From contig JAJRTN010000032.1 in the NCBI GenBank assembly GCA_024278275.1, positions 1 through 64,000 of the forward strand: 64,000 nt of DNA, in the 5' to 3' direction. The notes under the pieces were generated by a model, which ran no database searches, was not told the DNA's origin, and saw only the letters and a program-made list of their open reading frames with translations. Below are positions 45,548-60,555 of the stretch, one piece after another (positions within the stretch are counted from its first letter, which is position 1; each line of letters opens with the position of its first letter). The DNA comes from Candidatus Hydrogenedentota bacterium (GTDB taxonomy: Bacteria > Hydrogenedentota > Hydrogenedentia > Hydrogenedentales > JAJRTN01). A program made the translations under genes and the position numbers.

Positions 45548-47482
45548 CTACATGGCGGAGGTCCGCATTTCCATGGGTTGTTTGAGTAGCCACAGGCTTA
45601 CCAGGCTGAAGAGCACCATGGCGATCAACATGGGCACCTGGCTTCGGAAAGCCCGTTTGGGGTCCTGGAACAGGGCGCTGGCGATACGTCGGGCTATCCA
45701 CAGGCTGTAGACGTGGCCGATCATGACGAAGAGCACCTGGATCAGCCAGAGAGTCGGCAGGTCCACCAGGGGCGCGAAAGTTTTCTCCGCCGTGCCGAAA
45801 AGATCCCATTCCCAACCGAAGGGATCGGACAGGAGGGCGAGAACCTTCTGACCTTCCATGAGAAGATGTTCGCTGTTGTGCGCCAGGTGATAGAAGAGGG
45901 CGATGGGGAGCATGGCGTAGGCGTAGCGGATGAAGTAGGCCCGGTAGCCGGTCTCATGCTCTTGGGCCATCCAGCGCGAAAGGGCCACGAGGACGGCATA
46001 GATGAGGCCGGGCATCACCATCAGCCCGGCCATGCCGAGGGTGAAGGCCAGGGTCTCGCCGAGACCGGTGAAAGACTGGATGGCGTCGAGTATTTCGCGC
46101 CAGGCGCCGGTCATGGTGAGACCGTGAAAACCGGCGAGGGAAAGCATGAGCAGGGCCAGGTAGGCCTCGTCGGAACGGGGCCGGTACCGGGCGGCCAGGT
46201 CGGAGGCCCAAGGGCGGAGGCGAAGCGCCACGTTATCCCGGTCGCAGGTCTTCAGGCACTCCATGCAGGAGATGCAGTAGGTGTTTTGTTCCATGCCGGG
46301 CAGGTATTGGAAGGTGGGGCAGGGGTCGCCCTTTTCACTGCCCTTGAAGCAGGCCTTCGAACGGCAGGCACGGCAGGTGTCATGATCCACCGCCCGCACT
46401 TCGACGGGAGAGAACAAGGCATAAAGCCCGCTGATCCGTCCGACGAGACATCCATATCGGCAGAAGGATTCACGGTCGAAAAGGAAGGCGCTGACGAAGG
46501 CCAGGCCCACCATGCCCAGCCCGAGCCAGGCCGTGGCCCGCGGGTTCATGGTGACGCCGAAACCCAACTCCACCCAGGTGAGGGCTACGAAAAGCAGGGT
46601 GGCGGGCCAGATATTGCGCATGAGCCTGGGCCATTTCAGGCCCAGGCCCAGGCCCTCTTTCTTTGGTCCCCAGAAACGCAGTCCCTCCGACCAGTTGGCG
46701 ATGCTTTCCCAGGGGCAGACGTAGCACCATGCCTTGCCGAAGTACAGGATCAGCCAGACCAGGCCGCCCCACCAAACGGTCCAGGTGAGGATGGGAGCGA
46801 TGTTTTTCGAGGGAATCTGGTTGCCGAAGAGACCCGCGGCAATGATCAGCACGAACGCCGCCAGCACCACGGCGCGTGCGAAGAAGCGGGTGAGGGGATG
46901 GATGATCGCATGGTGAAGGGGCGCGAAGGCCAGCAGGTTCAACCGGGGCGGCGCGCCGCTCGCCTTGCCGCGCCGGTCCTCCCGGGCCGCCAGCCACTCG
47001 AAGACGCCGAAAGAAACAATCAGTATGAAGGCGACGCTGGTGTAATAGAGCCAATTCGGGATGCCCCACATGGTGTGCATGAAAAAACCGGCGGGGTCGT
47101 CGCGGAAGACCTGCCGGTGCTCCGCCGAGCAAAAAGCATGGGTCTTTCCCTGCCACGTGGCCTCGAAGCGTTCGCCTTCCGGGATGGGGGTGTATTTACC
47201 TTGGCTCCGGCACACCAGGCAGACTTCGGTCAAAAAACGCTTGGGTGTTTTCAGAAAGAGATCACGGCAGTAGGGGGAACAGAAGAAGTATGGGACGCCA
47301 TCCAGCATCGTGGCGGTCTCGTCGCCCACCTCCATGTGGCACACGGGGTCGATGCGCGGTCCCGGGGAGGCCATGCGGCCCCCGGCCAGTTCCAGACCCC
47401 CGCGGCTTTTACCGATAACGATCACCAGCACCACGAGCATGGCGCACAGGAAAGGGAAAGCCAGCGCGGTGAAACGCCTCAC
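45548..47482 (-). CDS. YHS-domain NosR/NapH-like membrane ferredoxin
   Basis: 644 residues. After an N-terminal helix come two YHS/TRASH-type modules: DPVCHMEV...FFCSPYCRDLFLKTPKRF (about 45-85) and a second ending HAFCSAEHRQVFRDDPAGFF (about 95-130). Then about six helices carry the NosR-like CYVCPWESIAN and CRYGCLVGRISG motifs and a 4Fe-4S domain (CRACRSKACF, CISCMECLKTCD). More helices end the protein. NosR-like proteins pass electrons from quinol or flavin to periplasmic reductases; YHS modules bind metals such as copper. GTG start at 47482 with AGGAGG seven bases upstream, overlapping the preceding gene by four bases. Last gene of the nitrate operon. Confidence 0.8.
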   Translation of the reverse strand: MRRFTALAFPFLCAMLVVLVIVIGKSRGGLELAGGRMASPGPRIDPVCHMEVGDETATMLDGVPYFFCSPYCRDLFLKTPKRFLTEVCLVCRSQGKYTPIPEGERFEATWQGKTHAFCSAEHRQVFRDDPAGFFMHTMWGIPNWLYYTSVAFILIVSFGVFEWLAAREDRRGKASGAPPRLNLLAFAPLHHAIIHPLTRFFARAVVLAAFVLIIAAGLFGNQIPSKNIAPILTWTVWWGGLVWLILYFGKAWCYVCPWESIANWSEGLRFWGPKKEGLGLGLKWPRLMRNIWPATLLFVALTWVELGFGVTMNPRATAWLGLGMVGLAFVSAFLFDRESFCRYGCLVGRISGLYALFSPVEVRAVDHDTCRACRSKACFKGSEKGDPCPTFQYLPGMEQNTYCISCMECLKTCDRDNVALRLRPWASDLAARYRPRSDEAYLALLMLSLAGFHGLTMTGAWREILDAIQSFTGLGETLAFTLGMAGLMVMPGLIYAVLVALSRWMAQEHETGYRAYFIRYAYAMLPIALFYHLAHNSEHLLMEGQKVLALLSDPFGWEWDLFGTAEKTFAPLVDLPTLWLIQVLFVMIGHVYSLWIARRIASALFQDPKRAFRSQVPMLIAMVLFSLVSLWLLKQPMEMRTSAM

Positions 47483-48069
47483 GACCGCGCCTCCTGTCCA
47501 GCCCCGGGAGTCTTCGCCATGCGCCGGCGTTTCTTGATGCGGATGGCCCGCACCACGATCAGGAAAACGACGGTTGCCGCCGCCACGCTCCCCAAGACCG
47601 TCCACGGCGACCCCGGATGGCCCACCACCATGGGAAGGTCGATAATCCAGGGAGCGTCCTCGGCCTCGAAGGCGATTCGAACCAGGTAGTTCGCCTCCTC
47701 CTTGAACTGGGGATAAAACTTGTAGATGGATTCTTCCAGTTGCGCTTTCATGGGACCGTAGACCACGGTGTCGCGGCCGATCATCGGATCCTTCAACACG
47801 GTCATGGTGACCGTATCATCGAAAGATTCGCCCGTGTCCAGGCGCCGAATGTAGACATGAAGCGAACACGACCCGCCGGGTTCGGGTCTGCCGGGGTAGC
47901 TCGTCATCTTGATTTCGTGCGGTCCCATATCGACGCGATAGGTCAGCACGGGGGTCTGGGGATAGTCCTTGTCGTAGGCGTAGTGGGGGATGCCCAGGAT
48001 GTGATGGCCCCAAGCGGTGCCAACACATGCGGCAAAGCACAGGGCCAGAAACGCCGCACGCCATTTCAT
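47479..48069 (-). CDS. FixH/YtkA-like periplasmic membrane protein
   Basis: 196 residues. Signal peptide (FLALCFAACVGTAWG), then a beta-rich periplasmic domain (about 20-155) with HHILGIPHYAYDKDYPQTP, paired histidines and YRVDMGPHEIKM. A C-terminal membrane helix (VLGSVAAATVVFLIVV) is followed by a basic cytosolic tail. The layout resembles FixH/YtkA-like proteins linked to cytochrome oxidase and copper metabolism; the match is by architecture only. GGAGGA precedes the ATG. The gene overlaps both neighbours by four bases, so its translation is coupled to napH and the NosR-like gene. Confidence 0.65.
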   Translation of the reverse strand: MKWRAAFLALCFAACVGTAWGHHILGIPHYAYDKDYPQTPVLTYRVDMGPHEIKMTSYPGRPEPGGSCSLHVYIRRLDTGESFDDTVTMTVLKDPMIGRDTVVYGPMKAQLEESIYKFYPQFKEEANYLVRIAFEAEDAPWIIDLPMVVGHPGSPWTVLGSVAAATVVFLIVVRAIRIKKRRRMAKTPGAGQEARS

Positions 48070-49118
48070 GAGGCACTCCTCCCGGTGGACGTTTCCCCGG
48101 CGACGGTCTCCCGCTGTTTCGCCCGTCCCAGCCGGTACGCCAGGGCATCGTCGTTGCAGTGCGAAATGCAGAGGCCGCAATTGTCGCAATCCATGCCCAT
48201 CCGGTTGATCATCGGGTTGAGACCAACCGGGCAGACCACGACGCACGCGGCGCAACGGGTACACTTTTCTTTCTTCAGTACGACACGGGCGGGCCGGGCA
48301 ACGCCAATCAACCCGTAGAGCGCACCGCCGGGGCAGATATAGCGGCACCACCAGCGGCGTGACAGGGTCACCTCGAAAAGTGCTATCGCGAGAATCAGCA
48401 GGCTCATCCAGGTGAGACCGGACATCCAGGCGTTGAAGTGGCCATCCTCGGCGCCGTCGAATATCCCGAAGACCAGGTCATGGGCCTCCCGGCTGATGAT
48501 GGCCGGCGGGTAGATGTAGCCAAATACCGGCGTTGCGAAGATGCACGCCAGAACAAGTCCCGTAAAGAGGAGGGCGTACTTCGTCGTGCGAGAGAACTTG
48601 ATATCGAGGGGAGGAAGCTCCAGGAGCTTGAGCACTCCCCGCAAACGGTCCGTGATTTCAAGGAAAAGGTTCATGGGGCACACCCAGGAACAGAACACGC
48701 GCCCCAACACGAGGGTCAGCAACACGGGCACGATGAGACTTATGACGAGCACCCGGGCAACTTTCTTGCCGGCCACCACGCTCTCCGCGCCTGCCAGCGG
48801 ATCGGTCATGGAGAGGCCGGCAAGCTGAACCGACCACGGACCTCCGCGCAGACTTTGGGTGTAGGAAAGTACCGCCTTTCGGTCACGAACCTTTTCCCCC
48901 GCACGTTCCTTTTCCCCCTTCGGCAGCGACCGGAAGGTTGCGTCCATGGCCTTCAGCGCGCGGCCCTGGACGGTGCCATCCCACTTCCTGATATTCTGGT
49001 CGAGTTCACGCGCCGCGAGGTAATTCCCATAGCGCGACACGGCGGGGATGGCCAGGAGCAGGGCCAGCGCGGTCATCTGCACAAGACGCCGGGCAATCTG
49101 GAGCTTTATTACGCGCAT
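48066..49118 (-). CDS. napH: NapH-like quinol-oxidising ferredoxin
   Basis: 350 residues with four main helices. The membrane motifs CSWVCPMNLFLEITDRLRG and CRYICPGGALYGLIG are the NapH/NosR/RdxA pairs. Two 4Fe-4S motifs follow at the C terminus (CTRCAACVVVCP and CDNCGLCISHC). NapH with NapG feeds electrons from menaquinol to NapA in organisms lacking NapC. The 80-residue periplasmic loop after the first helix (about 35-115) is longer than usual. It overlaps the second NapG-type gene by ten bases and the FixH-like gene by four. No NapC is seen in the cluster, in line with this role. Confidence 0.85.
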   Translation of the reverse strand: MRVIKLQIARRLVQMTALALLLAIPAVSRYGNYLAARELDQNIRKWDGTVQGRALKAMDATFRSLPKGEKERAGEKVRDRKAVLSYTQSLRGGPWSVQLAGLSMTDPLAGAESVVAGKKVARVLVISLIVPVLLTLVLGRVFCSWVCPMNLFLEITDRLRGVLKLLELPPLDIKFSRTTKYALLFTGLVLACIFATPVFGYIYPPAIISREAHDLVFGIFDGAEDGHFNAWMSGLTWMSLLILAIALFEVTLSRRWWCRYICPGGALYGLIGVARPARVVLKKEKCTRCAACVVVCPVGLNPMINRMGMDCDNCGLCISHCNDDALAYRLGRAKQRETVAGETSTGRSAS

Positions 49119-49792
49119 GGTCTAACCCGCAATCCTCCTGATGCGCCGGACCACCGGCGTGTACTGGTCACCTGGATGGCGCGAAGACCCTCCCGCTCGT
49201 CCACGATGCAAAACTCCTCGCAAAGCCCGCAGCCGGTACAGTGATCGGCATGGATCTCCGGCGCATTGCGAATCCCCTGGGTAATCGCCTTGCCCCGAAG
49301 GGGACAGGCCGTGAAACATGCGCCGCAAACGCCCGTTCCCGCATGGGAGACGCAGAGCCGTTTGTCCACGACCGCAAGTCCCATGCGGGCGTCTTCCTTC
49401 TTTTCAAGGGGTTCAATGGCTCCCGTGGGACAAGCGTCCCCACAGGCCAGACACAGGTTGCAGGCGCGGACAAGGGGAAATATACCGGGCGTGCCCTGGG
49501 AAGAGCCCGCTTCGGGACCGAAGAGCCGGATGGCCCCGGTTTCGCAGGCGTCGGCGCATCGCGTACAGCGGATGCAACGGGCAAGAAAACCGGGTTCATC
49601 AAGCGAGCCCGGCGGACGCAAAAGCCCCAATCCCCTTCTCATGCCGGCGGGCGCTTCATTGCCGCGACGCAGGGAACCGAAGCCGGCCAGCGCCGCGCCG
49701 CCAACGACCACGCTGAAAGCCACCGACACGGAGCGCGACATGAATCCGCTCCGGTCTTCTTCCATTTCGTCACGCAAAGGCGTACTTCCCAT
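49109..49792 (-). CDS. NapG-type four-cluster ferredoxin, second copy
   Basis: 227 residues. A hydrophobic N terminus (VSVAFSVVVGGAALAGFG) suits export or anchoring, though a clear twin-arginine motif is lacking. Four 4Fe-4S sites follow: CIRCTRCADAC, CNLCLACGDACP, the CVSHAGTGVCGACFTACP split site and CTGCGLCEEFC. This is the NapG/MauM pattern. A start at 49741 (GGAG eight bases upstream) is a good alternative to the ATG at 49792. It sits next to napH and should form the electron relay with it. Cysteine spacing differs from the first NapG-type protein, so the two are not recent duplicates. Confidence 0.82.
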   Translation of the reverse strand: MGSTPLRDEMEEDRSGFMSRSVSVAFSVVVGGAALAGFGSLRRGNEAPAGMRRGLGLLRPPGSLDEPGFLARCIRCTRCADACETGAIRLFGPEAGSSQGTPGIFPLVRACNLCLACGDACPTGAIEPLEKKEDARMGLAVVDKRLCVSHAGTGVCGACFTACPLRGKAITQGIRNAPEIHADHCTGCGLCEEFCIVDEREGLRAIQVTSTRRWSGASGGLRVRPCA

Positions 49793-50054: not shown

Positions 50055-50750
50055 TCATTCCTTTTGGCCCCGTTCCGGGACTACCGTTTCCGCCCTGGTC
50101 GCCTGGTGCCTCGGGCGTATGTGAATCGCCTGGGGATAACGGACACAGGCCCGTTCGCAGAGGCCGCAGCCGACACATGCGGAAGCATCGACCATTGGTT
50201 TTTCCCACAGACCCGCCTTGAGCGCCAAACCTTCGAATGGGCACGCCCGAACGCAGACCCCGCACGACGCGCCGTTGTAGGAATAGCAGAGGTTCAAATC
50301 CACCTCGGCTGTTCCCATCTTCACATGGGCCCGGATGCTGTCGTTGTCTTTTCGCGTTGCCTGCAACGCTCCCGAAGGACACGACGCGGTGCAAAGCAAA
50401 TGTTCTCCGGGAATGCCGTTGCACAACATGCAGGCCTGCTTTCGGGGGAAGATGACCGGGGTGCCCAACTGTCCTCGTCCCGGGCGCATGGCCAGGTCCT
50501 TGCCCGACGCTTCGGTGAAAGCCACGATGCACCGGTTGGGGCAGGCGTCGGCGCAACGCCCACAACGGATGCACGTTGCGAGGAAGTCTCCTTCCAGCAG
50601 TGCGCCCGGTGGGCGGATGCAGGGCTCCGCCGCGACGGTACCCATGCCACCCAGCGTCATGCCTCCCGCCGATACGCCCACCACGGAAAGCAATCCGGCG
50701 GCGCATTGGCGAAGGAACTTGCGTCGGCTCTTTGTGGTCGTCTTCGTCAA
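50055..50750 (-). CDS. napG: NapG-type four-cluster ferredoxin with Tat signal
   Basis: 231 residues. The twin-arginine signal (SRRKFLRQCAAG) sends the folded protein to the periplasm. Four 4Fe-4S sites follow: CIRCGRCADACP, the long-loop CMLCNGIPGEHLLCTASCP, CYSYNGASCGVCVRACP and CVGCGLCERACV. NapG passes electrons from NapH toward NapA. It lies three bases after napA, and the start region overlaps no other gene. Cluster order and Tat signal match NapG well. The operon has two such proteins, which is unusual. Confidence 0.88.
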   Translation of the reverse strand: MTKTTTKSRRKFLRQCAAGLLSVVGVSAGGMTLGGMGTVAAEPCIRPPGALLEGDFLATCIRCGRCADACPNRCIVAFTEASGKDLAMRPGRGQLGTPVIFPRKQACMLCNGIPGEHLLCTASCPSGALQATRKDNDSIRAHVKMGTAEVDLNLCYSYNGASCGVCVRACPFEGLALKAGLWEKPMVDASACVGCGLCERACVRYPQAIHIRPRHQATRAETVVPERGQKE

Positions 50751-50753
50751 GGT

Positions 50754-53480
50754 TTATGTTATCCGTTCGATCCGCGCCGCGCTCTTCTTGTAATCCGCCT
50801 GGCCTGAAACCGGGTCCCAGGCGCGGTGGCTTACGGCGTTTACCAGCCACTTGTTCGTTTTCGGGTCCGCGCTGTCGGCAACCGACAGGTTCCATGGGCT
50901 GAAAAGGTAGCCCTCGGGCACCTCGTTGCGCGCCGGGCGTACCGTGGAATGGGTTCCGACGGAGAGCCGCGCTTCATAACTTGAACGTCGGGTCACCACG
51001 CGCACTTTTTCGCCATCTTCCAGTCCGAGCCGTTCGGCATCCTTTTCGTGGATTTCCACGTATTGCTCGGGAACCAGCTTGCGCGTGGTCGCGCCACGAA
51101 TGGTCTTGGCCGTGTGGAAGTGTTCGTAGACGATGCCCAGCCCGAGCCAGAAGGGGTAAACGTCTTCCCTCTTGGCGTCTTCCAGGGTTTTCGAGTGGTC
51201 ATCATAGAAGTCGAGATCAGGCAATTCGGGCGTCAGGGCCAAGTCACGGGCCCTGATGATGATGTTCTGGTTCTGATAGAGCCATGGTCCTTCACCGACC
51301 TTCGCGCCGAACTGGCGCAAGTCCTTCGTGACGGCCTTGATGTTCTTGCCGTTGACACCGTAATCCTGTTCGCACAGCTTGAAATGGGCCTTGCCGTCGG
51401 CATGGCGGAAATTGGCGTAGGGCTGATTCTTCCATTTCTCCTGGTGCATGTAGCGCCGCTTCGTTCCGCCTTTTTTGGCGATCTCATAGGTGGGGGCCGG
51501 CCACTGGACGCCCCGAAGCTGGCGAAGCTGGTCGTAAAGACCGATACCGTCACGGTCGCGCACCTCCAACATCCCCGTCATGTCGGCGTCGGATCCCTTG
51601 GAGGCTTTCACAATGTCCTCGAAAACTTCTTCGGGATCATAGAACTTCTGTCCATAGGCGTTGGTGATCTTTTTCTTGTAGGGAATGATCTTGTCCATAT
51701 CCAAACCGAGCTTGCGCCCGATGGAGATGCACTTGTCGATGGCCAGGTCCATGTCGGGAACAGCCTCGGTGAGCACCTCGTCCCGTTCGTTGCGGCCCAC
51801 ACCGACCCCGTCGCAGACATAAACACGGCGCTCGGACTGGATGTAGGTGCCCCCCGTCCACTCGCCCCAGGTGATGGCCGGGAAAATAACGTCGCCGTAC
51901 AGCAGGTTGGGGGCGTGACGGTAGATTTCCTGGACAACGCAGAACATCTTCGTCAGGGCGGGGCGAACCAGGGTGTGGACATCGGGAAGGTGTACGTGAG
52001 TGGTGTACATCCAGAACATGGCCTTGAGATCATCGTTGCACGCCCGCTCCATCATGCCTATGGCCATGGGGTTGCTCTGCGTGAGGGTCTGTTCGAGACG
52101 CCCGGGGTCAAGACGCCAGCACTTGGAAATCCACTCCCGCCAGCTGTCGTTTTTCAGGGGCTGGTTGAACGGAAGGCGCCCGGTCAGTCCGCCCATGAGG
52201 CGTTCGCTCATGGCATTGGGCTGGCCGGTTTGCGAGTGGGTGCCGCAGCCGACACGGCCCACGTTGCCCGTGAGCAGGTGGAGGTTGATGATGGAGATCG
52301 TGTTGTGCTGGCCGTGGAGCATCTGGTTGTAACCGATTCCCCAGTAGGTGAGCACGCCGCCCTTGCCGGTCTTGCGCCCCTTGATCGAGGCCGCGGCCCA
52401 ATGGGCTGCCACCTGCTCGATTTCCTCCACCGTAACCCGGTGGCGGTCCAGCAACTGGTTGCGTTCGATGACCTGTTGGGGAGAATAGCGCGCCTTGACA
52501 CCCTCCACGTATTCCCGCCAGCCCTTGGTGTTCTTCTCCAGCCATTCTTCGGGCATGACCGCTTCGGGGTACTTGGTGAGGATGACATGGGCAATGGCGT
52601 TGAGGTAGGAAATATCCCCGTTGAGGGTGGGGAAGTGGTAGGAGTTGCGTGGGTTGATGCTGGCCAGGCCCTGCACGGTGCCGGTGGTTCGCGGATCGGA
52701 AACCAGTGTGGGGATATCCTTCAACTTTTTGTGATCCGCCACGCGCCAGAAAAGAACCGGGTGCGACTCGCGGGCGTTGTGGCCCCAGAAGGTGATCATG
52801 TCCGCGTCCACGATGTCTTCGTAGCTCGTGGGAGGCGCGTCCGAACCATAGGAGGCGAAGTAGCCTGTCACGGCCGAGGTCATGCACATGCGCGCGTTGG
52901 CCTCGATGGAATTGGACTGGAGAATCCCTTTCAGCAGCAGATTCTCGATCCACTGGGTCTCCATGGTGAGCTGGCCCGATCCGCTCAGCCCCACCGCGTT
53001 GCCGCCAAACTTCTTGGCCACATTCGCAATCTTCTCGGCCACCAACTCCTCGGCTTCATCGTAGGGCATTTCGTCGAACACATCATCGTCGAAGCGTCCT
53101 TTCGTCGCGGACACGTGGCCCGTGATCGGGTCCGACATGTCCTTGCGGACGAGTACGCGCTTCATGCGGTCTTTGTAGATCGGCTCGTCGGCGTTGAGCC
53201 CCTTGATGCACTGCACGCCGAGATTGGTGGGATGCAGTTTGTCGGGGATCATGCCCACGATGCGGTCGCCCTCGCACTTTATCAGCGTGCCGCAGCCCAC
53301 CCCGCAATAGGGGCACGCCGACTGGAGCGTGCGCCGGGCGCCGGGCGCGCCCGCGGGCAAGGTGTCGGCATGGGCGAACTCACCCGGGAACATGGGAAAC
53401 GCCGAAGCCGCGGTCGTGACGCCGCCCGTCCAACGCAAGAAGTCCCGCCGGTTCATCACGGGCTTGGTCAGTTTTTTCAT
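50754..53480 (-). CDS. napA: Periplasmic nitrate reductase, catalytic subunit
   Basis: 908 residues. A twin-arginine signal (NRRDFLRWTGG) exports it with its cofactors. The 4Fe-4S ligands are Cys56, Cys59, Cys63 and Cys91 (CPYCGVGCGTLIKCEGD). The molybdenum ligand is Cys199 in NARMCMTSAV. MGD-binding strings include TFWGHNARESHPV, GQPNAMSERLMGG and, near the C terminus, KLVPEQYVEIHEKDA with the final SVADSADPKTNKW region. NapA reduces nitrate to nitrite in the periplasm. The length suits the NapA family. The ATG overlaps the decaheme gene stop by four bases. Without NapB or NapC, electrons must come from NapG/NapH or the adjacent decaheme protein. Other DMSO-reductase-family substrates cannot be excluded. 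Confidence 0.9.
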   Translation of the reverse strand: MKKLTKPVMNRRDFLRWTGGVTTAASAFPMFPGEFAHADTLPAGAPGARRTLQSACPYCGVGCGTLIKCEGDRIVGMIPDKLHPTNLGVQCIKGLNADEPIYKDRMKRVLVRKDMSDPITGHVSATKGRFDDDVFDEMPYDEAEELVAEKIANVAKKFGGNAVGLSGSGQLTMETQWIENLLLKGILQSNSIEANARMCMTSAVTGYFASYGSDAPPTSYEDIVDADMITFWGHNARESHPVLFWRVADHKKLKDIPTLVSDPRTTGTVQGLASINPRNSYHFPTLNGDISYLNAIAHVILTKYPEAVMPEEWLEKNTKGWREYVEGVKARYSPQQVIERNQLLDRHRVTVEEIEQVAAHWAAASIKGRKTGKGGVLTYWGIGYNQMLHGQHNTISIINLHLLTGNVGRVGCGTHSQTGQPNAMSERLMGGLTGRLPFNQPLKNDSWREWISKCWRLDPGRLEQTLTQSNPMAIGMMERACNDDLKAMFWMYTTHVHLPDVHTLVRPALTKMFCVVQEIYRHAPNLLYGDVIFPAITWGEWTGGTYIQSERRVYVCDGVGVGRNERDEVLTEAVPDMDLAIDKCISIGRKLGLDMDKIIPYKKKITNAYGQKFYDPEEVFEDIVKASKGSDADMTGMLEVRDRDGIGLYDQLRQLRGVQWPAPTYEIAKKGGTKRRYMHQEKWKNQPYANFRHADGKAHFKLCEQDYGVNGKNIKAVTKDLRQFGAKVGEGPWLYQNQNIIIRARDLALTPELPDLDFYDDHSKTLEDAKREDVYPFWLGLGIVYEHFHTAKTIRGATTRKLVPEQYVEIHEKDAERLGLEDGEKVRVVTRRSSYEARLSVGTHSTVRPARNEVPEGYLFSPWNLSVADSADPKTNKWLVNAVSHRAWDPVSGQADYKKSAARIERIT

Positions 53481-56170
53481 GGCTGCAATTCTCCCTTTGG
53501 CGCGTGGTTTTCCTGCCACGCTCTGATGAAAGATACGATGTCACTCATGGCACCCACATCCAGGGATGCGATGCCCCCGGCCCCTTGGCCGAAGGGGCGC
53601 ATGGGCGTATTGCTTCTTCCCCGCGCGATCGTGGCCAGCAGGAAACCGTCCGAGGCCGCGTTCAGGAAGTTCTGGTTATTGAGCGCGGGCGCGAAATAGT
53701 TCACGCCGTCTTCAACACCCTTTCCGTTCGGACCGTGACACCCGGCGCAGAATTGCGCAAAGTTCCGTCCGCCCGAAATAATGGCTCGGTCGCTCATTTC
53801 GGCCACCGGCCGTGAATCGCGCCATGTGGAGGGCACGTCCCAGAGGCGCAGGTAGCCGATGACATCCTGCACCTGCTCCGGCGCGATCTGGCCGATGCCG
53901 TCCTGCCCGTGAATCATGGATCGCATGGGGGTTCCCGTGCGGCCCAGTACGATGGTGGCCGCGAGGAAACCGTCCGATACGCTTGCAAGGAAGGTCGGAT
54001 TGTTGAGCTGTGGCCCCGAGGCCCCTTCGCCGTTGACGCCGTGGCACCCCGCGCAACTTCCCCGGAAAACCCCTCCGCCCACCTTCGGGTCGCCCACGCC
54101 GCTTCGCAGGATCGGATGCTCGTCCCGTGATCCCAGGTAGCGGAGATAGGCTATCACGTCGGCGATCTGCCCCGGTTTCAGGCGGGTGGGGCCTTGTTCG
54201 CGGTTCAGAAAACCTTTCATCGCCGTGCCCGAGCGGCCGTGGGCAATCCATCGATAGAGCGTGTCATCGGAAACGGCGCTCAGGAAAGCGGGATTGGCCA
54301 ACTGCGGCCCCACGCCGCCCCGGCCTTCTTCCCCGTGGCAGCCCACGCAGGAAACCTTGTAGTGGACCTCGCCCAGCGCGTAGTCGCCCGTACCCGGGAA
54401 AGCCGCGAAGGCCGCCGTGCCGAGGGTCTGCCAGCTTCGCAGGTAACGGATGATTGACGCAATCTGTTGCGCCGAAAACTGTTTCCATGCGGGCATCGCC
54501 GTTGTTGGCCGTCCTTCCGTGATGGACCGGAAAAGAAACTCGTCATCCACCACCGAGAGCAGATCGGGGCTTCGGAGGCTGAGGCCAATGCCGCCTTCGC
54601 CATTCCTTCCATGACAGCTGGCGCAGTTGCCCTGGTAAAGCACGCGGCCCACCCGTGCCTGTTCACGATAGGGAAGCGACCATGCGGCCTGGCGAACCTG
54701 CTCATAGGTGGGCGCCGTCTTCTGCCAACTGCGTATGTGGGCCAGGATGTCGCTCACCGCCTGCGCTGGCAGGTGTTTCCAGGAGGCCATGGCGGTGCCG
54801 GGGCGGCCCTGGATGATGGTCCGGGCCAGGAATTCGTCGGAGGCGATGGCAAGGAAGGTGGGGGAGTTCAGGGTGTTGCCGATACCGCCTTCACCCTTCG
54901 TACCATGGCAGTTCGCGCAAAGTCCCCGGTAGTAAGCCTTGCCCACGACCGCGTTGCCGGCACGGGCGCCGACCCGGGCGGGATTGGCGCCCTTCTTTTC
55001 CCACCCGCGAATGTATTCGACGATCCTGTCGATCTCCCCATTGCCGAGGTTCCCCGCCTCCGGTCCCCAACCCGGCATGTTCGTGCCCTTCCGTCCGCTG
55101 CGGATTATCGACCGGTAGTAATCGTCACTGGCCACTGCCAGCGAATCCCGGTTATTAAGCGCGGGCGTGCGGATACCGGGGACTTCACTCGCTTCCCCGT
55201 TGGCGCCGTGACAGGAGGAACAGAGCATACCGTAAAGCGCTTCCCCCGACGGGGGGGCGGGAGGGGCGCGGTTGGGATCGACGGGGGGGCGGTAGGCGGC
55301 CGGCACCGCGCTGCGGCGCAGCGACAGCACGTAGGCGGTGAGGGCGTCGGCCTGTGATTCATCCAGCCCCATGTCCGGCATGACCGTGGTGGGACTGATT
55401 TCCCTGGGCGACAGGAAATGCTTGCGAAGCCAATAGGTTACTTCCCGGGGTTCGTCTTTTCCAAAATGGGTGAAATCGAAACCGTGCTTGGTCTTGTCGC
55501 CCACATAGGTGATGTCGGGGCCGAGCAAACCGCCCCGTCCGTTCAGCTTGTGACAGCCCAGGCAGCCTTTTTCCTCAACCAGTTGCTTGCCCTGAATCAG
55601 GAGCAACGCGCCTTTGCCGGGTGTTTCCCCGCCGGACCTGGCAAGCAGGGCCTCCGCTCCGTAAAGCGACTCATCATCATGGCAACGGCCACAGGCCGCG
55701 AAAAGATACTCCCGGCCCAGCATGGGGTAGGGCCAGTGCTCCACATGCCCGTGGGCCTCTTCCTTATCCGTGGCGCGGCCTTGGCCCTGGTGGCACACGG
55801 TGCAGCCGAAACGCTCGGGCGGATGGTCGTTGAGCAGGTTTCCCGGATGGGTTCGGAAGGGAATCTCCTGGTCCGTCATACGCGGGTCGTCCAGCCCCAC
55901 GTGACACGTAATACACCGGTCCACCGTGTTCAGCTCAGGCACCACGTTGTGGTCGATACCCACCTCGAACTGGGCGGCCACGGTCCGACCGAAATCATCG
56001 GTGGCCTTGGCCTCAAGAATCTTGGCGTATTGCAATCGCAGGGAACGCCACTCCACGAAGACATTTTCCTTGAGCGCCGAGGCGATTAGAAGCACCAAGG
56101 TCGCCAGGCTGACGATCAGCAGGGCCCACTTAATGCGTTTGTCCAAGCGCTCTATTTTATTCTCAGGCAT
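53477..56170 (-). CDS. Membrane-anchored decaheme cytochrome c with six tandem class I domains
   Basis: 897 residues with one N-terminal membrane helix (about 13-34). Ten CxxCH motifs are present. Four lie in the first 210 residues (CITCH, CTVCH, CGRCH and CLGCH, at about 86, 123, 160 and 203). The other six are at about 317 (CSSCH), 418 (CANCH) and 516 (CASCH), then CVGCH and two CAGCH. Each of the six opens a cytochrome c domain of roughly 100 residues with the repeat pattern CHGxxGEGG...L..P.FL....DEFL...I..GRPGTAM, which supplies a methionine ligand. It most likely links the Rieske/b complex to NapA, working in the periplasm as a wire. ATG at 56170 is preferred to a GTG three codons upstream. 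It overlaps napA by four bases. Confidence 0.88.
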   Translation of the reverse strand: MPENKIERLDKRIKWALLIVSLATLVLLIASALKENVFVEWRSLRLQYAKILEAKATDDFGRTVAAQFEVGIDHNVVPELNTVDRCITCHVGLDDPRMTDQEIPFRTHPGNLLNDHPPERFGCTVCHQGQGRATDKEEAHGHVEHWPYPMLGREYLFAACGRCHDDESLYGAEALLARSGGETPGKGALLLIQGKQLVEEKGCLGCHKLNGRGGLLGPDITYVGDKTKHGFDFTHFGKDEPREVTYWLRKHFLSPREISPTTVMPDMGLDESQADALTAYVLSLRRSAVPAAYRPPVDPNRAPPAPPSGEALYGMLCSSCHGANGEASEVPGIRTPALNNRDSLAVASDDYYRSIIRSGRKGTNMPGWGPEAGNLGNGEIDRIVEYIRGWEKKGANPARVGARAGNAVVGKAYYRGLCANCHGTKGEGGIGNTLNSPTFLAIASDEFLARTIIQGRPGTAMASWKHLPAQAVSDILAHIRSWQKTAPTYEQVRQAAWSLPYREQARVGRVLYQGNCASCHGRNGEGGIGLSLRSPDLLSVVDDEFLFRSITEGRPTTAMPAWKQFSAQQIASIIRYLRSWQTLGTAAFAAFPGTGDYALGEVHYKVSCVGCHGEEGRGGVGPQLANPAFLSAVSDDTLYRWIAHGRSGTAMKGFLNREQGPTRLKPGQIADVIAYLRYLGSRDEHPILRSGVGDPKVGGGVFRGSCAGCHGVNGEGASGPQLNNPTFLASVSDGFLAATIVLGRTGTPMRSMIHGQDGIGQIAPEQVQDVIGYLRLWDVPSTWRDSRPVAEMSDRAIISGGRNFAQFCAGCHGPNGKGVEDGVNYFAPALNNQNFLNAASDGFLLATIARGRSNTPMRPFGQGAGGIASLDVGAMSDIVSFIRAWQENHAPKGELQP

Positions 56171-56185
56171 GCTCCGCACTCCGTA

Positions 56186-57733
56186 TCAGTGGACGGGCCA
56201 GTCCGCTTTACTCCAGAAGAAAGCCCAGTTCGGACCCCGCAGATAAGTGCCCACGTAAGTGAGAATCACGAAGCCCACGAGAAAGCAGGTGAAAAGGGCA
56301 ATGGCACCCAGGCGTGTCGACCGCGTCTTTTGGATGATGAAGACCGACCACAGCGCGTAGGCGGCGGTAAGTAGACTGCCCGGGTTAAAAACGATGATGA
56401 TGAGCTGCGAAATGTCGGGAAACCAGTTTCGCAACCAGCCGAATTTCACCGGAACCGCCACCGAAGTGACCGCCGCGATGGTGGCGAATATCACCGACGA
56501 CGTAAGCACGCGGCGTCCCCGCCGGCCGCTGAACCACACGCCCGCGGGCTCCTTCTCCCGGTCCAGGTACGGGATAAGCCCCAAACCAATGACGACGATG
56601 GATGGCACGATAATCCCGCCGACCAGGGCCGAGTAGGCCACCATCTCCTGGAGCCCGAGGAAGTACCAGGGCGCCTTGGCCGGGTTCTCCGGCACGGCGG
56701 GGTTGGCCAACTCCGCCAGGGGCGCGTCCACCAGCAGTCCCAGGGCCACGCACAGGAGCATGGTGGCCATGAAGACCAGCAACTCCGCGCGCAGGAGATA
56801 GGGCCAGGAGGGCACGGTCTCGTCGATATCCTTTCCCGTGTGGGCGCTTTTTCCCTGCACCACCGCCATGAGGCCGTAGGTCTTGGCGCCGGCCTCCTCC
56901 GGCGCGATGGCCCTGGCCTCCATCGTACCCACGCCCTTGCCGGCCGGGGTGGGGTTGCCCTCGGGCCGGGCCATGCCGCCATCCTTGCGAATGCGCCACA
57001 TGTGAACACCGAGGATGGGAAGAAAAACGGCCGGCAACAGCATCACGTGGAACAGGTAGAAGCGAACCAGCGCCTCCTGCCCCACGGTCGATGCGCCCAG
57101 AAGCAGTTCCTTCTGGATATTGCCGATGTACAGGGATTGGGGAAGCCCCAGCGCATGGGCCAGTTCATTGGGTGAGGCGGCGATGTTCGCGCCGATGGTG
57201 ATGGCCCAGAAAGCCAACTGGTCCCAGGGCAGCAGGTACCCGGTGAAGGAGAACATGAGGGTAAGCACGAAGAGAACCATGCCCGCGACCCAGTTGAACG
57301 CACGGGGCCCCTTGTAGGCCGCCGTGTAGAAGACCCGCGCCATGTGCAGGATGATGAAGGCCACCATCAGGTGGGCCGCCCATCGGTGGATGTTGCGGAT
57401 GAAGCGGCCCGTGGGCACGATGTACTGAATATCCTTGATCGAATCGTAGGCGAGATCAACCGATGGCTTGTAATACACCATGAGGAGGATGCCGGTGACC
57501 ACCAGGATGATAAATTGCGAGATAAGCGAAACGCCCAGGCCCCACGTGGTCGTGAGGCGCAGCGAATGGGGATGGGTTCGCGTCGCGTGGATGTGCAGGA
57601 AGAAATTACCGAACACCGCCTGCGACCGCGTTCGGTCCGACGTGGGCGCCCCGTGCCGGATGAGTGATCCGCGAAAGTTCCTGGGCAGTTCCTTCAGGTT
57701 CTGAAAGAACATGCCGAGTCCACTGGATGCCAT
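56186..57733 (-). CDS. Cytochrome b of a Rieske/b complex (fused b6 plus subunit IV type)
   Basis: 515 residues. The N-terminal half has the cytochrome b helices with paired haem His ligands: RFIRNIHRWAAHLMVAFIIL and FYLFHVMLLPAVFLPILGVH. GYLLPWDQLAFWA forms the quinol site. The second half has NPAKAPWYFLGLQEM, the PEWY-like loop of subunit IV, here written as PWYF. Extra helices at the C terminus end in WAFFWSKADWPVH. It oxidises quinol at the membrane and bifurcates electrons to the Rieske centre and back to quinone. AAAGGAG precedes the ATG. The Rieske gene lies 14 bases upstream and the cytochrome c gene 15 bases downstream. Confidence 0.92.
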   Translation of the reverse strand: MASSGLGMFFQNLKELPRNFRGSLIRHGAPTSDRTRSQAVFGNFFLHIHATRTHPHSLRLTTTWGLGVSLISQFIILVVTGILLMVYYKPSVDLAYDSIKDIQYIVPTGRFIRNIHRWAAHLMVAFIILHMARVFYTAAYKGPRAFNWVAGMVLFVLTLMFSFTGYLLPWDQLAFWAITIGANIAASPNELAHALGLPQSLYIGNIQKELLLGASTVGQEALVRFYLFHVMLLPAVFLPILGVHMWRIRKDGGMARPEGNPTPAGKGVGTMEARAIAPEEAGAKTYGLMAVVQGKSAHTGKDIDETVPSWPYLLRAELLVFMATMLLCVALGLLVDAPLAELANPAVPENPAKAPWYFLGLQEMVAYSALVGGIIVPSIVVIGLGLIPYLDREKEPAGVWFSGRRGRRVLTSSVIFATIAAVTSVAVPVKFGWLRNWFPDISQLIIIVFNPGSLLTAAYALWSVFIIQKTRSTRLGAIALFTCFLVGFVILTYVGTYLRGPNWAFFWSKADWPVH

Positions 57734-57747
57734 GGGATGTACTCCTT

Positions 57748-58215
57748 TTAAGCGACGAAAAACTCGCCCTGTGGGACTTCCTTGCCTTTATCCACCACCA
57801 GGCTTCCGTCCGCGGCCTGCGACAGGGCCAGCCAGGGCAGCGAACGCGGCGCCGGCCCCCCGATGACGTTGCCGTCCTGGTCAAAACGCGATCCATGGCA
57901 GGGACACAGGAATCCCTCGCTCGATTCGCCCACGATGCAGCCCAGGTGCGTGCAGACCAGCGACATGGCGGCAATTCCATCTTCCGTGGCCACCAAACGC
58001 ACATTGTGTTCATGATCTGTCTTCACCACGCCCGGCGTGAACTCATCCAGCTTACCCGCCCGAAAACGGGCGGAGGCTTCGGGCAGTACGCGCGGTTTGG
58101 GCAACCGCGCCATGCCCAGCACCGATCCGATGATGGCCACGCCCGCGGCCCACCAACCCGCCAAGCCCAGAAAATCACGGCGTGGGAGGGGGTCCGGTTC
58201 TAATCTGCCTGGCAT
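57748..58215 (-). CDS. Rieske iron-sulfur protein
   Basis: 155 residues. A Tat-type N terminus (PRRDFLGLAGWWAAG) combines with one membrane helix, so the protein is anchored and faces the periplasm. The 2Fe-2S ligands are in CTHLGCIV and CPCHGSRFD, both complete, including the disulfide-type cysteines. The GPAPRSLPWL loop is the usual Pro-rich segment. It takes one electron from quinol in the b complex and hands it to the cytochrome c. GAGGAG lies before the ATG at 58215. It overlaps the oxidoreductase gene by 16 bases. Confidence 0.95.
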   Translation of the reverse strand: MPGRLEPDPLPRRDFLGLAGWWAAGVAIIGSVLGMARLPKPRVLPEASARFRAGKLDEFTPGVVKTDHEHNVRLVATEDGIAAMSLVCTHLGCIVGESSEGFLCPCHGSRFDQDGNVIGGPAPRSLPWLALSQAADGSLVVDKGKEVPQGEFFVA

Positions 58216-60098
58216 ATCAGTTTCTCCTCGAAATGGAATTCTTCCATGGTGATGGCCCCCGTGGGGCACCGGTCGGCGCACAAGGCGCAACGTATGCACT
58301 TGGTCTCATCCTTGATAATGGCCGAGGCCCCCTCTTCCGGCGGAGAGTCCAACGGCTCATCCAGCACGGTTCGTAAGTCCGGGGCGCTCTCAATCGACTC
58401 CAACGGCACGATCTTGAGGCACAATTCAGGGCACACATCGACGCAGCCGCCGCACAAAACACAGCGCAAGCCGTCGAAGATGGTGTTCACGCCGCAATTC
58501 AGGCAACGTGACGCCTCGCGCCGCGCCTCCTCGCAGGTGAAGCCCCGCTCCACCACGCAGCCCGCGGCCCGCAGCCGCTCTTCCACGCTGACGGTCGCCG
58601 GGTGGGCCCGTTCTATCTTTTCATACCCCGCTTCGCGGTCGTACCGGGCCACGGGAAAATGCAGTTCCACGTCCTGCGGGGCGATGTGACGCCCGGTGAA
58701 GTGCGCGTATATTGCACGCGCCACGGCCTTCCCCGAAGCCACGCCATGAATCAGCAGTTTCGGACCATAGGCCAAATCCCCCGCAACGAATACATCCGGC
58801 GCGCTCGTAACCCCTGTTTCCGGATCGCACTTCACCGCGCCATTGGGAAGCATCTCCAGACCGTCCTTCTCGGGCTCCAGGAAAGAAAGGTCGAAACTCT
58901 GCCCTATGGATATCAACACGTTGTCGCAGGGAATGGTCGTCAAATCGTTTTCATCGAATAACGGACTGAACCGGTGGTTCTCGTCAAAGACGCGCAGGCA
59001 GCGCTGGAAGACCGCCCCCCGAACCGCGCCCCGGTCATCAACGAGAATCTCCTTGGGACCCAGACTGTTCCGGCGAATCACCCCTTCCTCGTCGCCTTCC
59101 ATGATCTCCACGTCATCGGCGGGCATTTCCTCCAGGGATTCAAGCGAACACAGGTTCACTTCCTTCACCCCTGGCTCGCGCATGGCCGTGCGCGCCGCGT
59201 CAAGGGTGATCTGGCGCATCACCGTCCGGCCCACGTCGTAGGCCACGTTTCCGCCGCCGATGACCACCACCCGGCTGCCCAGGGAAGGGGGATTGCCCAG
59301 GGAAACATCGCGCAGGAACTCCACGCCCCCCAGCACGCCCTCCGCATCCGCCCCCGGAATGGGAATGCTCCGGGAACGCTTCGCGCCCACGGCGATGATC
59401 ACGGCGTCATGCTTGCGGCGAAGTTCCGAAAAACTGATATCCTTGCCAATACAACAGTTGGTGCGGGCCTCGACACCAAGAGAGGTGATCACCTCAACCT
59501 CCGCCTGGATGAGGTCGCGGGGGAGGCGATAGTCGGGAACACCCACGGCCAGCATGCCCGCGAGGACCGGCTCCATCTCGTAAATGGTGACCGCCACGCC
59601 GAGCAGCGCCAGGTCATGGGCCGCCGCGAGTCCCGCGGGACCGCTGCCGATGATGCCGACGCTCCTGGACGCCACCTTGGGAATGGCGTTGCTCATGAGC
59701 GACTGCAGCAACGAAAGTAATTCGTTTTTCCCGCTGCACTGGCGCGGGGCATGGCGCCGGGCCGCCTCCTTCAGAAAATCAACCAGCGTTTTGCCGCCGT
59801 CGGCCCGGGCCTCCGGTCCAAACTGCTCACACACATACCGCTTCAACGCTCGAATGGAGACGGCCTTGTCATAGTCCGCGCGACGGCAATCCGTCTCGCA
59901 GGGGGCGCCACAGACCCGCCCGCAGATGGAGGCCAGGGGGTTGGGACCCCGCGCAATCAGGTAGGCCAGCTCGTCATCGCCCTCGGCGATGGCGCGAATA
60001 TAGCCCCGTGAATCGGTGTTCACCGGACAAGCGGCCTGGCACTTGATCTGTGCCTTCCAATAATCACGGTCCGCCAGTTTTATGTTAAAGCTGTCCAT
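58200..60098 (-). CDS. GltD-like NAD(P)H/FAD/4Fe-4S oxidoreductase
   Basis: 632 residues. Residues about 15-80 carry the Fer4_20-type cysteines (CQAACPVNTDSRGYI, CGRVCGAPCETDCRR). The FAD site is GIIGSGPAGLAAAHDLALLG. The NAD(P) site is VVVIGGGNVAYDVGRTV. The C-terminal 100 residues add 4Fe-4S motifs (CLNCGVNTIF..., CVLCGGCVDVCPELC and CIRCALCADRCPTGA). The layout matches the small subunit of glutamate synthase and related NAD(P)H modules, but no GltB partner is near. Its place between the Rieske gene and the regulator suggests it feeds NAD(P)H electrons into the complex, or takes them from it. Start at 60098 after AAGG; it overlaps the Rrf2 gene by 14 bases. No signal, so cytosolic. Confidence 0.88.
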   Translation of the reverse strand: MDSFNIKLADRDYWKAQIKCQAACPVNTDSRGYIRAIAEGDDELAYLIARGPNPLASICGRVCGAPCETDCRRADYDKAVSIRALKRYVCEQFGPEARADGGKTLVDFLKEAARRHAPRQCSGKNELLSLLQSLMSNAIPKVASRSVGIIGSGPAGLAAAHDLALLGVAVTIYEMEPVLAGMLAVGVPDYRLPRDLIQAEVEVITSLGVEARTNCCIGKDISFSELRRKHDAVIIAVGAKRSRSIPIPGADAEGVLGGVEFLRDVSLGNPPSLGSRVVVIGGGNVAYDVGRTVMRQITLDAARTAMREPGVKEVNLCSLESLEEMPADDVEIMEGDEEGVIRRNSLGPKEILVDDRGAVRGAVFQRCLRVFDENHRFSPLFDENDLTTIPCDNVLISIGQSFDLSFLEPEKDGLEMLPNGAVKCDPETGVTSAPDVFVAGDLAYGPKLLIHGVASGKAVARAIYAHFTGRHIAPQDVELHFPVARYDREAGYEKIERAHPATVSVEERLRAAGCVVERGFTCEEARREASRCLNCGVNTIFDGLRCVLCGGCVDVCPELCLKIVPLESIESAPDLRTVLDEPLDSPPEEGASAIIKDETKCIRCALCADRCPTGAITMEEFHFEEKLICQAD

Positions 60099-60555
60099 TG
60101 CCCTTGCCTGCTTGCGTCTTTTTCCGCCGTCCCTGCAGTTGCTGTCTTTCCGTTGCCAGCAACTGCCCCAACGTAGTGGCCTCCAGTTGCCCCACGAGCC
60201 TGGTCTTGGTTTTCGACCATTCCCCATGGAGCGGACAAGGGCAATCGCCACCGCACTCGGGCAACCCCATAATGCAATGGTTGTAACTGTCCTCGCCATC
60301 GATGGCCTTCACCAGGGTCAATAGCGAAAGGCTGTACGGATCGTGGGCGAAACGATAACCGCCGCCCGGTCCGGAAACCGCCTTTAATATCCCCTGCTGC
60401 GCCAAGGTCTGAAAAACCTTTCGCGTGAAAGCCTCGGGTACATCAGCCTTTTCACAGACATCCCTGGCCTGAAAAAGCTCATTCACCGCGCCGTTCGCCA
60501 TGTGCATCAGCGCACGAAGCGCATATTCGCACCCTTTCGAATACAACTTGAACAC
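60085..60555 (-). CDS. Rrf2-family regulator, IscR/NsrR-like
   Basis: 156 residues. The winged helix covers about 5-70 (GCEYALRALMHMA, ARDVCEKADVPEAFTRKVFQ, KAVSGPGGGYRFA). Cys94, Cys101, Cys105 and Cys107 in the CIMGLPECGGDCPC loop sit where IscR and NsrR bind a 2Fe-2S or 4Fe-4S cluster, which lets them sense Fe-S status, oxygen or nitric oxide. GTG start with GGGAGAG upstream. It is the first gene of the nitrate operon and probably controls it through the inverted repeat at 60579-60612. Which signal it senses cannot be read. Confidence 0.92.
   Translation of the reverse strand: MFKLYSKGCEYALRALMHMANGAVNELFQARDVCEKADVPEAFTRKVFQTLAQQGILKAVSGPGGGYRFAHDPYSLSLLTLVKAIDGEDSYNHCIMGLPECGGDCPCPLHGEWSKTKTRLVGQLEATTLGQLLATERQQLQGRRKKTQAGKGNGQL

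Follow-up and report, generated by a model that had tools for sequence, protein, structure and literature searches.

A decahaem c-type cytochrome encoded between a Rieske/cytochrome b complex and a nitrate-reductase-like molybdoenzyme in a Hydrogenedentota genome

The gene cluster and its decahaem cytochrome

In this study, a gene cluster was identified on the minus strand of the window, the whole stretch of 64,000 nucleotides from a Candidatus Hydrogenedentota bacterium that was analysed here. Read down that strand, the cluster begins with an Rrf2-family regulator (60085-60555), the listed frame of which overlaps the annotated start of a GltD-like FAD/NAD(P) oxidoreductase with extra 4Fe-4S domains (58200-60299, N-terminal start uncertain), followed by a Rieske 2Fe-2S protein (57748-58299), a cytochrome b (56186-57733), a decahaem c-type cytochrome (53477-56170) and a Tat-type molybdopterin oxidoreductase (50754-53480). 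The stop codon of the decahaem gene (53479-53477) overlaps the ATG of the molybdoenzyme gene (53480-53478) as ATGA. Further downstream are two NapG-like ferredoxins (50055-50750 and 49109-49792) and a NapH-like membrane 4Fe-4S protein (48066-49118), all three assigned by family search, then a 196-aa exported or membrane protein (47479-48069), which begins MKWRAAF and contains HHILGIPHYAY, and finally a large FixG/NapH-like membrane protein with NapH/FixG-type Cys motifs (45548-47605), for which NCBIfam gave no match at 1e-8. A similar counterpart of the 196-aa protein likewise lies 3' of NapH in the related locus L018, and a homologue of the large membrane protein stands at the end of the cluster in 17 of the 18 ten-haem loci whose sequence continues for 8 kb or more in that direction, being absent from L032.

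The open frame of the decahaem protein runs from 53477 to 56179 if started at GTG, or to 56170 if started at ATG, and encodes about 900 aa. The ATG is the likelier start since ACGGAG lies eight bases upstream of it; residue numbers given here are nevertheless counted from the GTG. As the earlier note on this DNA had read from the letters, there are exactly ten CxxCH motifs, and all of the exactly twenty Cys residues lie within them. Shuffled versions of the sequence held 0.012 such motifs on average and 2 at most, and the ten motifs are a genuine feature. Pfam recognised five to six Cytochrom_C/CBB3 stretches, and Pfam together with NCBIfam described repeated class-I cytochrome c domains behind a multihaem N-terminal stretch. 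The same note had divided the haems into four N-terminal ones and six in repeated domains. The total holds, but the division is better drawn as a membrane anchor with three clustered haems, followed by seven class-I His/Met haem domains, because haem 4 (CLGCH, residue 206) falls within an NCBIfam SoxX-like match spanning residues 206-286 and is accompanied by an invariant Met267, which places it in a class-I-type domain of its own, outside the N-terminal cluster.

Alignment of 20 ten-haem homologues, the others being 36-62% identical to the window protein, showed that all ten haem sites are invariant, so that axial ligands are lost in none of the domains. His111, His119 and His143 are likewise invariant and are the natural candidate distal ligands of haems 1-3, while Met267 is assigned to the haem 4 domain and the invariant Met368, 464, 562, 654, 752 and 860 to haems 5-10, each pairing being based on position in the sequence. 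With an invariant Met at seven haem sites and no porin gene noticed in the cluster, the protein does not belong to the MtrA/MtrC/OmcA type, which has bis-His haems throughout and, in the case of MtrA, a porin as partner.

The last six class-I domains had been described as near-identical; pairwise identity among them is only 30-47%, and domain 4 shares 23-28% with them. In a tree of the domains, those that occupy the same position in different phyla cluster with one another, with 11 label changes where shuffles gave 71. Since this grouping extends over several phyla, the series is old and has not been homogenised, which bears out the suspected age of the repeats and rules out a recent tandem duplication. 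AlphaFold2 gave a pLDDT of 75.6 and a pTM of 0.70 for the whole protein, modelled without haems and with low confidence in the three-haem part, and a pLDDT of 85.1 and a pTM of 0.84 for the six-domain part. By our own estimate a pTM of about 0.24 would be expected for six domains without known relative position, so that these six domains are predicted to sit in fixed positions relative to one another. Foldseek matched the model to single-domain cytochrome c folds or, loosely, to two-domain proteins only. One of these loose matches is the dihaem QcrC of actinobacterial bcc-aa3 (6adq_C, 7e1v_C), with a TM-score by target length of only about 0.4. QcrC is the c subunit of a bc complex whose tandem class-I domains bridge to a terminal enzyme; in the bcc-aa3 supercomplexes it has two domains and an oxidase partner, whereas the window protein has seven domains and a three-haem part.

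The quinol-oxidising core and the molybdoenzyme

From the genes around it, we take the decahaem protein to be the c-type subunit of a Rieske/cytochrome b complex which, like those of anammox bacteria, includes an NAD(P) oxidoreductase, here GltD-like, although gene adjacency alone is not proof of a physical complex. The Rieske protein carries both 2Fe-2S motifs (CTHLGC and CPCHGSRF; PF00355), and among solved structures its best and third matches, 9rk4 and 9rk3, are Kuste4569 and Kustd1480 of Kuenenia. The cytochrome b is a single chain of 515 aa matching an ExtP-like and an ExtQ-like part, with its four haem-ligand His residues (H116, H130, H229 and H244) present in 73 of 73 homologues, and the GltD-like frame contains Pyr_redox_2 and Fer4 domains. 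Kuste4569-4574 and Kustd1480-1485 of Kuenenia stuttgartiensis share with the window this kind of Rieske protein, a putative NAD(P) oxidoreductase and a membrane-anchored multihaem c subunit, and one of the two also has a linked enzyme proposed to reduce nitrite (PMC12954380), in the place of which the window has a linked molybdoenzyme. The differences are several: the Kuenenia c subunits are hexa- or octahaem, in contrast to ten haems and seven class-I domains here; the b6-like and subunit-IV parts are separate genes there and fused here; haem cN is bound there via a Cys of cytochrome b6, whereas the b6 part in the window has no conserved Cys; and the partner there is an HAO-like protein rather than a molybdoenzyme. 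Published AlphaFold3 models of the Kuenenia complexes ligate a central haem b by a His close to the N-terminus of cytochrome b, His43/His62 (PMC12954380). An extra His47 near the N-terminus of the window cytochrome b, present in 72 of 73 homologues, may be the counterpart of that predicted ligand. The genome of the window encodes another Rieske/b/GltD complex, whose c subunit has five haems (L025, contig C96, 18000-37000; frame 8068-9351 of L025, minus strand); none of the exemplars matched a terminal enzyme beside it.

The molybdoenzyme has a Tat signal, an N-terminal 4Fe-4S motif (CPYCGVGC..C) and a Mo-ligand Cys within ARMCM; both motifs are conserved in an alignment of 17 members, in which the Mo-ligand Cys is invariant. 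The active site, with CM after Arg, is of the NapA/NasA type. Related molybdoenzymes include formate dehydrogenases, but a formate dehydrogenase was rejected as an identity since the pattern differs from Cys/Sec-His, no His following the Mo ligand. Direct membership of NapA was rejected as well, the protein falling far below the family cut-offs (PRK13532, 266 bits against 904; TIGR01706, 246 against 931). Its closest solved matches are nitrate reductases. In the tree it forms a separate clade (100/100), whose branch next to NapA and NasA measures 1.4 changes per column; NapA and NasA themselves join at only 85/86. With Nap it shares the molybdopterin enzyme, the 4Fe-4S motif, the Tat signal, the Cys ligand of Mo and the NapG/NapH homologues; on the other hand it is a sister clade, family searches recognised neither NapB nor NapC in the cluster, and electrons are proposed to arrive through the decahaem subunit of the Rieske/b complex. 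Nitrate or a similar oxyanion is its most likely substrate and our leading guess, an uncertain one since identity to the best plasmid-borne Nap/Nas matches is only about 26-29% and the NapA score is 266 bits against 904. The molybdoenzyme is present in only 5 of 68 Hydrogenedentota genomes, and counts of NrfA, haem-copper oxidases and molybdoenzymes in these five gave no clear pointer to the substrate.

Relatives and the histories of core and output

A genome scan found 80 related loci, labelled as Hydrogenedentota, Verrucomicrobia, Latescibacterota, Planctomycetota, Acidobacteria, Bacteroidota, Nitrospirae and others. Relatives with fewer haem domains, a search for which the earlier note had recommended, are thus available: complete frames hold 4 to 10 haems, apart from one of 19. 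The molybdoenzyme adjoins the decahaem gene in 22 of 22 distinct ten-haem loci, which are not independent events because they share ancestry, and in none of the complete loci with other haem counts. Neighbours outside the ten-haem set were assigned by their resemblance to a small number of exemplars, and several contigs stop before the neighbouring gene can be recognised. So assigned, the neighbours of forms with 5 to 9 haems are mostly other enzymes: five-haem forms adjoin NosZ (five loci, one confirmed by family search) or a type II DMSO-reductase-family enzyme, six-haem forms adjoin type II DMSO-reductase-family or NarG-like enzymes, seven-haem forms have mostly NarG-like neighbours, and most eight-haem forms adjoin an octahaem protein.

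Several of these loci deserve mention in their own right. Five-haem versions lie directly upstream of a gene for Sec-type (clade II) nitrous-oxide reductase in L106 (11224-13221), L098, L099, L103 and L027. The version with 19 CxxCH motifs is a protein of 952 aa in a Phycisphaeraceae genome (L094, 9947-12802), near an 862-aa protein of Tat-type appearance. Bacteroidota have seven- or eight-haem versions (L052, 5351-7714; L054, L056, L084 and L091), in whose vicinity an octahaem protein of about 750-790 aa is encoded separately.

Core and output have separate histories. The ten-haem group was fixed before cytochrome b was tested, the idea for the test having come from a wider tree. At least five label changes on starred branches are required for the ten-haem systems in the tree of cytochrome b, where a constraint that unites them lowers the log-likelihood by 233 units (AU p 8.7e-5); the corresponding loss for GltD is 98 units (AU p 1.4e-7). 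By contrast, domain 4 of the ten-haem systems is monophyletic (99/97), as is the molybdoenzyme (100/100). The N-terminal four-haem part looked monophyletic when taken as a single block, but the split tests differ for its two pieces, the three-haem part not being one clade in the best tree, at a borderline AU p of 0.049. Cytochrome b of the window shares 74-77% identity with its counterparts in the six-haem systems L022, L023 and L064, whereas domain 4 shares only 36-39% with these three and 46-64% with other ten-haem systems. Mirror-tree correlations show the same division: r is 0.86 between cytochrome b and GltD, 0.68-0.92 among the decahaem protein, molybdoenzyme, NapG and NapH (0.84-0.86 for the decahaem-molybdoenzyme pair), and 0.52-0.73 between the two sets.

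These comparisons with relatives in many phyla suggest that the outer haem domains and the molybdoenzyme have been inherited together as an exchangeable unit, and the output half appears to have been exchanged between quinol-oxidising cores. We propose, as an evenly balanced possibility, that the class-I domains from domain 4 on and the terminal reductase have been inherited and swapped as one piece behind a resident quinol-oxidising core. The junction would then lie somewhere between cytochrome b and domain 4, perhaps in the linker that joins domain 4 to the three-haem part. Its exact position is tentative, since the split at this linker was made after the identity comparison. Alternatively, the conflict between the trees of cytochrome b and of domain 4 and the molybdoenzyme could reflect gene conversion between paralogous complexes in one genome, with no transfer of a cassette. 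Some genomes do have more than one such complex, as the second one of the window genome on contig C96 illustrates, but the conflict extends over several phyla, and under gene conversion core and output would still evolve separately; we think this explanation rather doubtful.

A proposed route from quinol to the molybdoenzyme

We consider it likely that the decahaem protein wires quinol oxidation at the Rieske/b complex to the adjoining nitrate-type, or similar, reductase. Quinol would be oxidised at the Rieske/b core. The first electron would leave by way of the Rieske protein for the three-haem part at the membrane anchor, run along class-I domains 4 to 10 and, by a putative contact of domain 10, reach the Tat-type molybdoenzyme, whose most likely acceptor is nitrate or a similar oxyanion. 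The other electron would enter the low-potential b haems and go on either to quinone, in a Q-cycle, or to NAD(P)+ via the FeS-flavoprotein. This NAD(P) branch, and with it the putative function of the flavoprotein, is the least certain step and follows a proposal for anammox bacteria, in which Rieske/b complexes with an NAD(P) oxidoreductase are thought to make NAD(P)H (PMC12954380). The NapG/NapH-like proteins may form a parallel quinol route. Counting against this reading, a single reductase has no evident need of seven class-I haem domains. In C. jejuni, genetics has shown that Nap depends on the Qcr complex (PMC6195509), and a link between Rieske/b and nitrate reductase has been discussed in haloarchaea (PMC4683180), thus bc-type complexes have been shown or indicated to be able to feed nitrate reductases. 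The nap cluster of Caldithrix abyssi likewise contains Rieske/cytochrome b genes, NapGH and a multihaem carrier, but that carrier is a separate tetrahaem NapM with no tandem class-I chain reported (PMC5317091), in contrast to the decahaem chain in the window.

Among the alternatives, the same wiring with an acceptor other than nitrate, e.g. selenate, iodate or an organic N- or S-oxide, is a real though lesser possibility: the molybdoenzyme stands as a clade of its own on its long branch beside NapA/NasA, and no substrate-level family model matched above cut-off, while the nearest solved matches are nitrate reductases and relatives of the complex adjoin NosZ and NarG-like enzymes. It is unlikely that electrons run the other way, from a substrate oxidised by the molybdoenzyme into the cytochrome chain and NAD(P)+ reduction. 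The NAD(P) oxidoreductase in the complex and the formate dehydrogenases among the relatives of the molybdoenzyme would suit such a flow, but the active site follows the Nap/Nas pattern and does not have the His of formate dehydrogenases, NapG/NapH-like proteins are in the cluster, and sister complexes adjoin NosZ, a reductase. Very unlikely is a wire or electron store that takes electrons outwards from the inner membrane, to the outer membrane or to extracellular acceptors, and to which the molybdoenzyme would be incidental: seven consecutive domains could bridge a considerable distance, and six of them are predicted as a fixed array, but the molybdoenzyme gene is strictly adjacent and overlapping, the distances of the two proteins are correlated, and neither an outer-membrane porin or other such partner nor an extracellular cytochrome was noticed in the window cluster. 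We thus rejected a long extracellular wire. The serial duplication and long chain of haem domains that the earlier note had seen are supported, but not its partners well away from the membrane, given the adjacent molybdoenzyme in every ten-haem locus.

We found no description of the pairing of a ten-haem protein with this molybdoenzyme, or of such a cartridge-like exchange, in the open-access papers that we searched. If wiring from quinol to the molybdoenzyme has indeed been assembled by exchange of whole output halves, the reductase being plugged in would dictate how many haem domains a complex has. This would amount to a rule, open to testing, on the way in which bc-type complexes connect to various anaerobic reductases, and it bears on why such complexes hold so many c haems, a question left open by the anammox work (PMC12954380). 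The findings also point to an uncharacterised clade of nitrate-reductase-like enzymes across several phyla.
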